A stretch of DNA of 64,000 nucleotides from Chthonomonas sp. (GTDB taxonomy: Bacteria > Armatimonadota > Fimbriimonadia > Fimbriimonadales > Fimbriimonadaceae). The notes below the pieces were generated by a model that saw only the letters and a program-made list of their open reading frames with translations, searched no databases and was not told the DNA's origin. A program made the translations under genes and the position numbers. The stretch covers positions 310,001-374,000 of the forward strand of contig JAEURP010000009.1 in NCBI GenBank assembly GCA_016788585.1, in the 5' to 3' direction. Positions 29,674 through 33,567 of this stretch are shown here, one piece after another (positions within the stretch are counted from its first letter, which is position 1; each line of letters begins with the position of its first letter).

Positions 29674-30066
29674 CTAGATTTCTGGATGGGACTGTTGCAG
29701 AGCTTTGGGTGCCTTGCTCCGCCAAGCTTCTATGAGCAGGTCGCGGAGAATATCATTCGGAACCTTTGCTAGCTCCACTACGACGGCGGGATAGTTGTTG
29801 TAATGCGGGTCGTGGATGAAGAACTCAGGGTCGGTTTGTTCAATGACCTCACGAGCGGAGAGGGAAGCTGTGGAGATCGCCCAAAACCTGGGATTAGGCA
29901 CGCGGGCTTTCTTTGGTTCCAGGCGTTCAAGCCAAACCCAACAGATACCCTTCATCTTGCCTCTGACTTCGACTTCGAAAGCATTGCCATTTTGGACAAT
30001 TCCCGGGAGCGACAATGCCGTCGTCGCCAGGTCGTCAAGAGTTGCCAAGACTCGCCTCGGCGGCAT
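29674..30066 (-). CDS. MmcQ/YjbR-family protein
   Basis: A 130-residue protein of the small YjbR-like fold. Family-like stretches are SLPGIVQNGNAFEVEVRGKMKGICWVW and DPHYNNYPAVVVELAKVPNDILRDLLIEAWRSKAPKAL near the C-terminus. Members resemble the double-wing DNA-binding fold but their function is not established. ATG 30066 overlaps folD by 32 bp; TTG 30048 with GAGGCG ahead is a good alternative and would give 124 residues. It follows folD directly. Confidence 0.75.
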   Translation of the reverse strand: MPPRRVLATLDDLATTALSLPGIVQNGNAFEVEVRGKMKGICWVWLERLEPKKARVPNPRFWAISTASLSAREVIEQTDPEFFIHDPHYNNYPAVVVELAKVPNDILRDLLIEAWRSKAPKALQQSHPEI

Positions 30067-30895
30067 CGACCGTGTTCATGAGGAGCGAGACGACGGTCAT
30101 TGGGCCCACACCGCCGGGCACGGGCGTGATCCAGCTGGCCTTCTCAGAGCATTCTTCGAAATGGCAATCGCCGACGTCTTTGTCACGGCCCTCGACTCGG
30201 TTATAGCCCGCGTCTACCACGACCGCGCCTGGCTTAATCCAATCTCCTCGGACCATTTCGGGACGCCCGACAGCGGCGACGACCACGTCGGCCATGCGGC
30301 AAAGGTCTGGCAATTTCTGGGTCTTGCTGTGCGCGATCGTGACGGTCGCGTTCTTTTCGAGAAGCATCAGGGCCATCGGTTTGCCGAGGATGACGCTGCG
30401 CCCAATGACGACAGCATGCTTGCCAACTAAATCGATGCCGTAATGATCGAGCAACCGAATGATGCCCAATGGCGTTGCGCAACGAAAACCAGGAAGCCCA
30501 GCAACGAGGGCACCAAGGGATTGGGGCGTGAGTCCGTCAGCGTCTTTGCCGGAACCGAGGGCGAGCAGAGCAGCATCTTCGTCGAGGTGCTTTGGGAGGG
30601 GGTGCTGAAGCAAAACACCATGTACACTTGTGTCGGCGTTTAGTTTCGCGATTTGATAGAGTAATTCGGCTTGAGTCGTGTTGGCCCCGGCTTCCCATTG
30701 ACCGCTTTCCATTCCGGCTTTGGTGGCCCAAGCGCGCTTCATGTTTACGTAGGCGACGCTGGCGGGGTCTTGTGAGGCCACAATCGCTTCTAAACGGGGC
30801 ACAATCCCCTTTTCGCGTAGGGCAGCAACGCGGGAATTGAGTTGTTCGCGCAGGGTTGTGCTGAGGGCTTTGCCATCAAGAAGTTGGGCGGGCAT
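30035..30895 (-). CDS. folD: Methylenetetrahydrofolate dehydrogenase/cyclohydrolase FolD
   Basis: A 286-residue bifunctional enzyme interconverting 5,10-methylene- and 10-formyl-tetrahydrofolate. Visible motifs are VASQDPASVAYVNMKRAWATKAGM (the catalytic Lys in YVNMK), GVLLQHPLPKHLDED, GKDADGLTP, CATPLGIIRLLDHYGID, VVIGRSVILGKPMALMLLEKNATVTIAHSKT (dinucleotide binding) and ITPVPGGVGPMTVVSLLMNTV at the end. It supplies formyl groups for, among others, the Fmt reaction encoded elsewhere in the window. It lies 26 bp after nusB. Confidence 0.96.
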   Translation of the reverse strand: MPAQLLDGKALSTTLREQLNSRVAALREKGIVPRLEAIVASQDPASVAYVNMKRAWATKAGMESGQWEAGANTTQAELLYQIAKLNADTSVHGVLLQHPLPKHLDEDAALLALGSGKDADGLTPQSLGALVAGLPGFRCATPLGIIRLLDHYGIDLVGKHAVVIGRSVILGKPMALMLLEKNATVTIAHSKTQKLPDLCRMADVVVAAVGRPEMVRGDWIKPGAVVVDAGYNRVEGRDKDVGDCHFEECSEKASWITPVPGGVGPMTVVSLLMNTVDAAEASLGNS

Positions 30896-30921: not shown

Positions 30922-31494
30922 CTAAGGCGTGCGGATTGTCCAGCCCGGCGATTTGGAAAGCTCTTCGTGGAGTTCCGAACCGGCCTGTACGATTTCTTCC
31001 TCTTCATCTTGGACTGGTGCCGGAGGAGTGGGCTCAGCGAGCATCGGGTCGAAATCTTCGTGCTTAAAATGGGCCTTTGCCGTTAGCGGTAACAGCTTGC
31101 CAAGCACGCCGTTGATGAACTTAAAGCTGTTTTGATCACCATAGGTTTTCGCCAGATTTACAGTTTCGTTGATCGTGACTTTTGGTGGTGTTTGAGGAAC
31201 AAATTGGAACTCGGCCGCCGCCATCCGAAGTAATGCTCGATCGACCTTGGATATCCGATCAAATCGCCAGCCCTCGGCCATTAATGGCTCAAGTAAGGCG
31301 TCGATCGAGTCTCGGTCATCAATCGTGGCGGTGACGATGGTTTGGATGTACCCGGCAAGTATCTCGGGGAATGCCTCTTGACCAAGCGCATATTCTAGGA
31401 TTTCCTTCAAGTCGACCTCGGCGGAATCCAGCGAGTAGATTGCCTGGAAGGCAGCATTCCGAGCGGCAAGCCGAAGATCCGCAGGCGACTTCAA
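30922..31494 (-). CDS. nusB: Transcription antitermination factor NusB
   Basis: A 190-residue protein starting at TTG, whose start overlaps the accC stop (TTGA). The all-helical NusB domain covers residues 1-140: RLAARNAAFQAIYSLDSAEV, ILAGYIQTIVTATIDDRDSIDALL, DRISKVDRALLRMAAAEFQF and PPKVTINETVNLAKTYGDQNSFKFINGVLG. It acts with NusE (S10) at boxA in rRNA transcription. The C-terminal extension (about 145-190) is acidic and Pro-rich, unlike E. coli NusB, and is probably disordered. Confidence 0.93.
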   Translation of the reverse strand: MKSPADLRLAARNAAFQAIYSLDSAEVDLKEILEYALGQEAFPEILAGYIQTIVTATIDDRDSIDALLEPLMAEGWRFDRISKVDRALLRMAAAEFQFVPQTPPKVTINETVNLAKTYGDQNSFKFINGVLGKLLPLTAKAHFKHEDFDPMLAEPTPPAPVQDEEEEIVQAGSELHEELSKSPGWTIRTP

Positions 31495-32846
31495 ACGAGG
31501 GCTTCCTCGAGCATCGAGGGCACAAACGCGGTGGTCACTTTGCCCGAAACATAGTCTGGGTGGCGGACCAAACGCCGCAGGAAGGGAATGTTGGTTGAGA
31601 TTCCTTCGACATGAAACTCATCGAGCGCGACTGTGAGCCGGCGAAGGCACTCGTCACGGTCACGACCGGTGACAATCAGTTTCGCGATCATCGGATCGTA
31701 AAATGGCGAAATCGTAAACCCAGCGTAAACGTGGGTGTCCATTCGCACGCCAATCCCGCCTGGAGCATTCCAAAGCGTGATCCGCCCAGTACTTGGCGCA
31801 AAGTCATTGTCAGGGTCCTGTGCCGTTATTCGAGCTTCGATCGAGTGCCCACTCAACACGAGATCATTCTGGGTGAAGCTCAGTTTCTCACCGGAGGCAA
31901 TACGCAACTGCTGCTCGACTAGGTCGAGGCCTGTGACGCTCTCAGTCACCGGGTGCTCGACTTGAAGACGAGTGTTCATTTCCAAGAAGTAGAACTCGCC
32001 CTGCTCGTCCACCAAGAACTCAACGGTGCCGGCATTCGTGTAGCCGACGCTACCCGCAACGCGCACCGCCGCTTCACCCATTTCTTTGCGGAGAGCCGGG
32101 TCCATCAAGGCAAATGGGGCCTCCTCTACGATTTTCTGGTGGCGAAGGTTCTGTACTGAGCACTCGCGCTCAAAAAGGTAAACGCCATTGCCGTGCTCGT
32201 CGAAGAGAACTTGGATTTCGACGTGTCGTGGGTTCTCGACGAACTTCTCAACGAGCATGGCGTCATTTCCAAAGCTCGCCTGAGCCTCGGCCTGAGCGAT
32301 ACTCCAACACTTTTGAAGTTCCGCAGGATCAGCGACTTTACGAATTCCGCGACCGCCGCCCCCGGCTACGGCCTTGAGGAGTACCGGGTAGCCGATTTCC
32401 GTCGCAAGCGCAAGGGCGTCCTGCTCGGTTTCAACTGGACCATCGCTACCTGGAACGACCGGGCAATTCGATGCAATGGCGGCTTCCTTGGCCTTTGCCT
32501 TGTCTCCCATGGCGACAATGGCGGATGCCGGGGGGCCGATGAACTTGACGCCCATCTGGGCGAGCGCTTCAGCAAAGTGATCGCGCTCAGAGAAATACCC
32601 GTAGCCGGGATGAACTGCATCGGCCCCCGAAATCTCGACCGCCATCAAGACGTTAGCCAAGTTTAGATACGAGTCCGTGTTTGAGGCTTCTCCGACGCAA
32701 ATCGCGTGATCGGCAAATGACACATGGAGGCTGTCTTTGTCCATCTGGCTGTATATGGCGACCGTTTCGATACCAAGCGCTTTGCATCCGCGCATCACGC
32801 GCAACGCAATCTCTCCCCGATTTGCAACCAAAACCTTCTTAAACAT
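31491..32846 (-). CDS. accC: Biotin carboxylase subunit of acetyl-CoA carboxylase
   Basis: A 451-residue ATP-grasp enzyme that carboxylates biotin on the carrier protein using bicarbonate and ATP. It starts at MFKKVLVANRGEIALRVMRG; the frame runs 10 codons further but the ATG at 32846 overlaps the upstream stop (TAATG) and gives the usual N-terminus. Motifs: HPGYGYFSERDHFAEAL, VLLKAVAGGGGRGIRKV (ATP loop), FLEMNTRLQVEHPVTESVTGLDLV (catalytic Glu, Arg) and GHSIEARITAQDP. It is separated from the accB-like gene by a lipoprotein gene, unlike the usual accB-accC pair. Confidence 0.96.
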   Translation of the reverse strand: MFKKVLVANRGEIALRVMRGCKALGIETVAIYSQMDKDSLHVSFADHAICVGEASNTDSYLNLANVLMAVEISGADAVHPGYGYFSERDHFAEALAQMGVKFIGPPASAIVAMGDKAKAKEAAIASNCPVVPGSDGPVETEQDALALATEIGYPVLLKAVAGGGGRGIRKVADPAELQKCWSIAQAEAQASFGNDAMLVEKFVENPRHVEIQVLFDEHGNGVYLFERECSVQNLRHQKIVEEAPFALMDPALRKEMGEAAVRVAGSVGYTNAGTVEFLVDEQGEFYFLEMNTRLQVEHPVTESVTGLDLVEQQLRIASGEKLSFTQNDLVLSGHSIEARITAQDPDNDFAPSTGRITLWNAPGGIGVRMDTHVYAGFTISPFYDPMIAKLIVTGRDRDECLRRLTVALDEFHVEGISTNIPFLRRLVRHPDYVSGKVTTAFVPSMLEEALV

Positions 32847-33169
32847 TAGTACTTTTTGTGTCCCGGATGGTCGCACTTCACGTTGCCGGTGGAGGCGTCG
32901 TACGTATAGGGCTTCTTGTCGATTGGGTCCACGATCATTTCGGCGGGAAGTCTGAGCTCGGCAAGGCTCCCCGGCGGCGTTTCATCGGCATTTGTCATCG
33001 CAATGACGATGGCGGCTCTAATCTGCCTTAGGTTCTCCATGCAGACTTCATCTTTAGCTCGGGCCATGCTCTGACCGACAGCGGTGTGACCAACTTGGTC
33101 GGCCCTCTGGTTACCCGTCTCGGTGCAGCCAATCATGACGATTGGGACTAGAAACAACCATGTCTTCAT
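32846..33169 (-). CDS. Lipoprotein with pseudopilin-like C-terminus, between accB-like and accC
   Basis: A 107-residue precursor with signal peptide and lipobox (IVMIGC, Cys about 15). The mature part has a helical stretch (MENLRQIRAAIVIAMTNADETPP) and ends DPIDKKPYTYDASTGNVKCDHPGHKKY. The final segment resembles the C-terminal strands of type II secretion/pilin-like proteins (DPxxxxPYxYD...CPxH), in which a lipobox instead of a prepilin site is unusual. It overlaps accB-like (ATGA) and accC (TAATG), so it is strictly co-translated with the carboxylase genes. Function unknown. Confidence 0.8.
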   Translation of the reverse strand: MKTWLFLVPIVMIGCTETGNQRADQVGHTAVGQSMARAKDEVCMENLRQIRAAIVIAMTNADETPPGSLAELRLPAEMIVDPIDKKPYTYDASTGNVKCDHPGHKKY

Positions 33170-33567
33170 GCCGGCTCAACCCTCGCGACAACCTGTCCAA
33201 ACTCTACTGCTTCGCCATCTTCGACCAAAAGCTCCGCAATCGTCCCGCCTTTGCTTGAAATCACATCCTGCCGAAGGCCCAGCGCGGTGACGGCGCCAAT
33301 AGTGTCGCCCTTCTCGATTTCTGCCCCCACTTTCACATCCGCAAGAGCAAAATAGCCGACACTCGTAGCCTTGACTTCATAGAGTGTCTCAGCATGGGTG
33401 ACGGCAGCCATCTCGGGTACTTCGGGGGTTTCAATAGCCGGGGATGCGGCGGAATCGAAAGTTGCCGTAAATCGCTCTCCATGGGCCTTCACGCTGACAT
33501 AGCGATACCCATTTTCTTGCGCCGTCTGAAGGGCGTGCTGGATCAAGTCAAGGCCAAGACCGGGCAT
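33166..33567 (-). CDS. Biotin carboxyl carrier protein homologue lacking the biotinyl lysine
   Basis: A 133-residue AccB-like protein. The N-terminal helix (LIQHALQTAQENGYRYVSVKAHGERFT), Pro/Ala-rich linker (38-55) and C-terminal biotinyl-domain fold (ATSVGYFALADVKVGAEIEKGDTIGAV, then GGTIAELLVEDGEAVEFGQVVARVEPA) follow AccB. In AccB the hairpin carries EAMKM with the biotinylated Lys; here it reads TALGL (94-98), with Gly97 in the Lys position. The protein cannot be biotinylated there. The frame is intact and the gene sits at the head of the acc operon, so it is not simply decayed. Plant BADC proteins, which lack the same Lys and restrain acetyl-CoA carboxylase, are the nearest functional parallel (inference). 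No convincing Shine-Dalgarno precedes the ATG. Confidence 0.85.
   Translation of the reverse strand: MPGLGLDLIQHALQTAQENGYRYVSVKAHGERFTATFDSAASPAIETPEVPEMAAVTHAETLYEVKATSVGYFALADVKVGAEIEKGDTIGAVTALGLRQDVISSKGGTIAELLVEDGEAVEFGQVVARVEPA

Follow-up and report, generated by a model that had tools for sequence, protein, structure and literature searches.

A candidate BADC-like paralogue of AccB, lacking the biotinyl lysine, at the head of the accC operon in Armatimonadota

AccB (BCCP; TIGR00531; PDB 1bdo and 4hr7) joins an N-terminal region to a biotinyl-domain barrel, and in Bacillota a normal AccB is encoded at the head of an accC-nusB-folD operon. In plants, AccB homologues known as BADC proteins lack the AMKL motif, and thus the site of biotinylation, and coexist with a true BCCP. 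They were first called inhibitors and later assembly factors; the second view, in which BADC helps to assemble the BC-BCCP subcomplex, is the one argued in PMC11926652. Actinobacterial acyl-CoA carboxylases contain another small, non-catalytic protein, the AccE-type subunit (Thermobifida fusca), which promotes assembly and activity of the biotin carboxylase complex but binds the carboxyltransferase subunit and is not described as an AccB homologue, so that its relation to the protein considered here is by function only (PMC7835884). The literature searched, from which subscription journals were mostly absent, yielded no paper on a BADC-like AccB of bacteria.

The window, by which we mean the whole 64,000-nucleotide stretch of Chthonomonas sp. 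DNA analysed here, contains an operon of the Bacillota type whose first gene encodes an AccB-like protein. This gene lies where the initial annotation had placed it, on the minus strand; the plus-strand frame over the same positions is interrupted by a stop. The features of the locus are as follows.

33166-33567, minus strand: AccB-like protein of 133 amino acids that lacks the biotinyl lysine, first gene of the accC operon (open reading frame, Pfam and profile match)
33460-33552, minus strand: N-terminal helix and beta hairpin (residues 6-36), matching the AccB N-terminal region (model and alignment)
33328-33354, minus strand: shortened thumb site, 9 residues between Gly71 and Gly81 (alignment)
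33274-33288, minus strand: TALGL (residues 94-98) where AccB has EAMKM, with the Gly97 codon at 33277-33279 (translation and codon)
32846-33169, minus strand: small gene with a pseudopilin-like or lipoprotein-like product, located after the AccB-like gene and before accC, its start overlapping the preceding stop (ATGA)
31491-32846, minus strand: accC, biotin carboxylase, its start overlapping the preceding stop (TAATG)
30922-31494, minus strand: nusB-like gene, its start overlapping the accC stop (TTGA); named from sequence and operon place
30035-30895, minus strand: folD-like gene, named from sequence and operon place

That the protein has the fold of a biotinyl domain is indicated both by Pfam (Biotin_lipoyl, PF00364, 32.2 bits against a cut-off of 22.1) and by structure comparison, the modelled barrel matching 1bdo with Z 13.4 (rmsd 1.9 over 73 residues) and 4hr7 with Z 13.2. 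No BADC structure was among the solved-structure matches listed for the model. A family profile matches E. coli AccB (4hr7_B, E 6e-17) over positions 4-132, an alignment that takes in the biotinyl domain as well as the N-terminal region. The predicted structure (mean pLDDT 74) likewise starts with a helix and hairpin, which a disordered linker connects to the barrel. The N-terminal elements (helix 6-19, strands 23-28 and 31-36) are modelled with moderate confidence, at a pLDDT of about 63-76. The initial annotation was thus right that the N-terminal region of AccB is kept. Its statement that the rest of the biotinyl domain is well kept holds for the barrel and not for the thumb, whose shortening it had missed: the segment has 9 residues in the alignment, as against 16 in thumb-bearing AccB. 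The TIGR00531 equivalog score, 34.4 bits, falls below the cut-off of 115.2, which the true AccB of the same genome also misses, at 95.5 bits. A lipoyl domain of the E2 or GcvH type was considered and rejected: the lipoyl lysine, usually in T-D-K, is absent, and the TDK-bearing E2 proteins of the genome are separate.

Glycine at the lysine position, the central claim made for this gene, is borne out by translation, by the profile alignment, which sets ALGL opposite AMKM of E. coli AccB, and by the codon, GGC, which is three substitutions away from AAA or AAG. Only four columns are invariant among 30 relatives that are 27-59% identical to the window protein; Gly97 is one of them, as are Gly71 and Gly124, so that neither chance nor a misread base accounts for the glycine. 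Judged by its sequence, the protein can take no biotin at the position where AccB carries it. Its LG motif presumably resembles that of plant BADC.

The operon AccC is intact, as had been noted: it is full length, scores 633.6 against a TIGR00514 cut-off of 626.5, and retains the conserved stretches EMNTRLQVEHPVTE and CSVQ...RHQK. The order AccB-like gene, pseudopilin-like gene, accC, nusB, folD recurs across Armatimonadota, and this orthologous position in an accB-accC-nusB-folD operon marks the protein as an AccB homologue by descent. The named relatives belong to this phylum; they include Armatimonadetes bacterium 55-13 and an assembly that bears the label Fimbriimonas ginsengisoli (L245). 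At least 107 of the 121 genomes have accC at the locus of the AccB-like gene, a count made after two duplicate genomes were removed by hand and in which many of the loci read were short.

The pseudopilin-like gene lies between the AccB-like gene and accC in 107 of the 123 loci scanned across the phylum (L070, L072, L079, L080, L082 and others). Some members carry an N-terminal methylation motif (31.7 bits in L082, above the cut-off); the N-terminus of the window protein is more lipoprotein-like. In family f2, of the same order, the lysine-less AccB-like gene lies outside the accC operon but is retained (L036, L076, L077, L128, L172), and its motif reads EVLGIPNE or NVLGIPNE.

The initial annotation had named a second, true AccB as an alternative to a BADC-like regulator, and had proposed a genome-wide search for an xMKM-bearing AccB and for birA. 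A lysine-bearing second AccB and a biotin ligase were found in the window's genome (2.38 Mb, 95% complete), for which, as for the others, genome-wide statements rest on searches across genomes. Another contig encodes a canonical AccB, with EAMKVFNE and the thumb, between guaA and a homoserine-dehydrogenase-like gene, and there is one biotin ligase. AccA and accD are also present, both above cut-offs. A BADC-like protein presupposes a true carrier, so the two readings are compatible. Together, the true AccB, AccA, AccC, AccD and the biotin ligase rule out loss of the pathway: the AccB-like protein is a paralogue, and the pathway is not broken. A further biotin carrier, with EAMKTQQ, adjoins an HMG-CoA-lyase-like gene, and the remaining Biotin_lipoyl matches belong to lipoyl E2 proteins or to an HlyD-type adaptor. 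The true accB occupies an unusual place for such a gene (L002 1117-2623, contig C24), directly preceding and slightly overlapping the homoserine-dehydrogenase-like gene.

Across the phylum, the residue at the lysine position of the operon protein was read in 121 genomes, two duplicates having been removed by hand; most genomes compared are assemblies from metagenomes. It is glycine in 70, lysine in 37, arginine in 4, threonine in 3, aspartate in 3, asparagine in 2, serine in 1 and histidine in 1, so that 84 of the 121 have a residue other than lysine. The second AccB, read in 70 loci that cover part of the genomes, has both the lysine and a 16-residue thumb segment in all 70, as do all 43 AccBs of other bacteria. 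Outside the window's family, it retains the lysine in each of the 31 genomes that have a lysine-less operon protein and in which it was read. A genome search found no second AccB in G126 and G127, whose congeners have one; assembly gaps are the likely cause.

Parsimony requires at least nine changes between lysine and non-lysine on the AccC tree (85 rows) and at least seven on an AccB tree built with the lysine column left out, which has few columns and weak deep branches. Several well-supported clades are mixed: f19 and f11 (both K, R), f29 (K, S), f12 (K, N, G, D) and f15/f16 (G, K). Lysine-bearing operon proteins retain closely similar flanks, [E/Q][S/A/T][M/L/I]K, and this similarity, with the lysine found in all second AccBs read, makes losses much likelier than gains. 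It is thus much more probable, on these sequence grounds, that lysine was lost several separate times from the operon protein within Armatimonadota than that it was gained. Lysine at this locus in relatives had been named as an observation that would undo the initial reading; it occurs only in deeper relatives, where it points to repeated loss and not to an error. Seven to nine changes in a gene that is kept also mean that the lysine is dispensable in the operon paralogue. The short thumb segment is found in most operon proteins, lysine-bearing (35 of 37) and lysine-less alike, so the thumb was probably lost first. In work by Cronan from 2001, which PMC11926652 cites, the thumb of E. coli AccB is reported to be essential.

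A profile of the protein matched 202 of 205 genomes of the phylum, some of these best matches being the second AccB. Outside Armatimonadota, every confirmed AccB-type match of the genome scan has EAMK or ESMK, with a profile that was tuned to the ALGL motif and GEVVEVLV and that lysine-less AccBs of other phyla could escape. One match of the scan (L296) proved not to be an AccB, and a scan of viral contigs for an AccB-like protein gave no match.

The AccB-like gene is under purifying selection, with dN/dS of 0.07-0.45 in 11 close pairs and 0.115 within the window's own genus. Its fate also appears linked to that of the carboxylase. The two genomes of genus g29 (G032 and G131; same family, 1.5 Mb, 97% complete) lack the operon AccB-like protein together with the true AccB, the operon-type AccC and the FAS-type AccA and AccD; the scores of their sole AccC, 521-541 bits, resemble that of the window genome's second AccC. 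The protein thus disappears with the carboxylase, in a joint loss that concerns one genus and hence counts as one event. A PCC/MCC-like carboxylase alone remains in g29, which may import fatty acids or live as a dependent.

We give a probability of about two in three to the reading that this AccB paralogue has lost biotin carrying and is retained as a non-catalytic, BADC-like subunit of acetyl-CoA carboxylase. The kept fold and N-terminal region, the adjacency to accC in a tightly overlapping operon that the gene heads, the true AccB encoded elsewhere, the dispensable lysine, the purifying selection and the joint loss in g29 all favour it, as does the plant precedent. Against it stand the 37 relatives with lysine at the locus, in which the protein may serve as a carrier, the position of the gene outside the accC operon in family f2, the moderate confidence of the modelled N-terminal part and the fact that the joint loss is one event. 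Made next to AccC, the protein would bind AccC, the true AccB or both through its N-terminal helix, hairpin and barrel surface, and would take some of the AccB places in the AccC-AccB subcomplex. By occupying these places it could determine how the enzyme assembles or how active it is, in the manner of plant BADC. An E. coli AccC dimer binds four AccB (PMC3896788), which makes a mixed complex of AccB and AccB-like subunits conceivable. An activating effect, as an assembly glue, appears somewhat more likely than an inhibiting one, as a dummy carrier.

The inhibitory model of BADC offers a different role, that of a dominant-negative regulator which keeps the true AccB off AccC by competition and so lowers malonyl-CoA synthesis; this was the role that the initial annotation preferred. 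It would fit the gene arrangement, the lysine-less protein sharing an operon with AccC and the true AccB being encoded at another site, and inhibition in vivo has been recorded in plants, going by its citation in PMC11926652. The same paper argues, however, that assembly is the better reading of later reconstitution and NMR work, and a pure inhibitor would be expected to have been lost in some lineages, yet almost every genome of the phylum has the gene; we consider this role unlikely. A still smaller chance attaches to a protein acting mainly on expression, by AccB-type autoregulation in which the N-terminal region controls transcription of the accC operon. The N-terminal domain of E. coli AccB does autoregulate accBC (PMC3896788), and here the region is kept and the gene heads the operon; but the C-terminal barrel, with its invariant Gly71, Gly97 and Gly124, is conserved too, needlessly for pure N-terminal regulation, and in family f2 the gene persists apart from accC.

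Several independent losses of lysine, with many different replacements, might also be expected of a relic, an operon copy made redundant once the second AccB took over and now on its way to gene loss. Such decay is very improbable given the dN/dS values and the frames free of internal stops, which together rule out a pseudogene, and given that Gly97 does not vary within the window's family, whose members share 27-59% identity with the window protein. An error of sequence or assembly, or the attachment of carboxyl groups to another residue of the protein, found no support and is scarcely credible: the three-base difference from a lysine codon and the agreement of relatives rule out a sequencing error, and the genome has a true AccB and a biotin ligase.

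The interpretation given in the initial annotation is partly supported. Its comparison with plant BADC fits the missing biotin site, the N-terminal region, the true AccB, purifying selection and joint loss; a lowering of carboxylase activity by the protein is conjectural. The likeness is one of features and extends to a non-catalytic role only by inference for the Armatimonadota protein. Unlike plant BADC, that protein is bacterial and operon-encoded, and its lysine would have been lost within Armatimonadota, several times. For the phylum as a whole, the odds seem even that AccB has split into a thumb-bearing biotinylated carrier and a thumbless structural subunit with a dispensable lysine, an independently evolved counterpart of BADC.

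Annotators should be aware that the accB label on a gene of an acc operon does not guarantee a carrier; in Armatimonadota the true carrier is encoded elsewhere. Retention of the protein beside an intact second carrier, after loss of the lysine, suggests that it persists as a structural or regulatory subunit like those of plant chloroplasts. Whether plant BADC is an inhibitor or an assembly subunit is disputed, and repeated loss of the lysine with retention of the protein would provide natural replicates for this dispute, the lysine-bearing and lysine-less orthologues of the same subunit allowing comparative reconstitution. If true, the split AccB system would show that the structural role of AccB is separable from biotin carrying.
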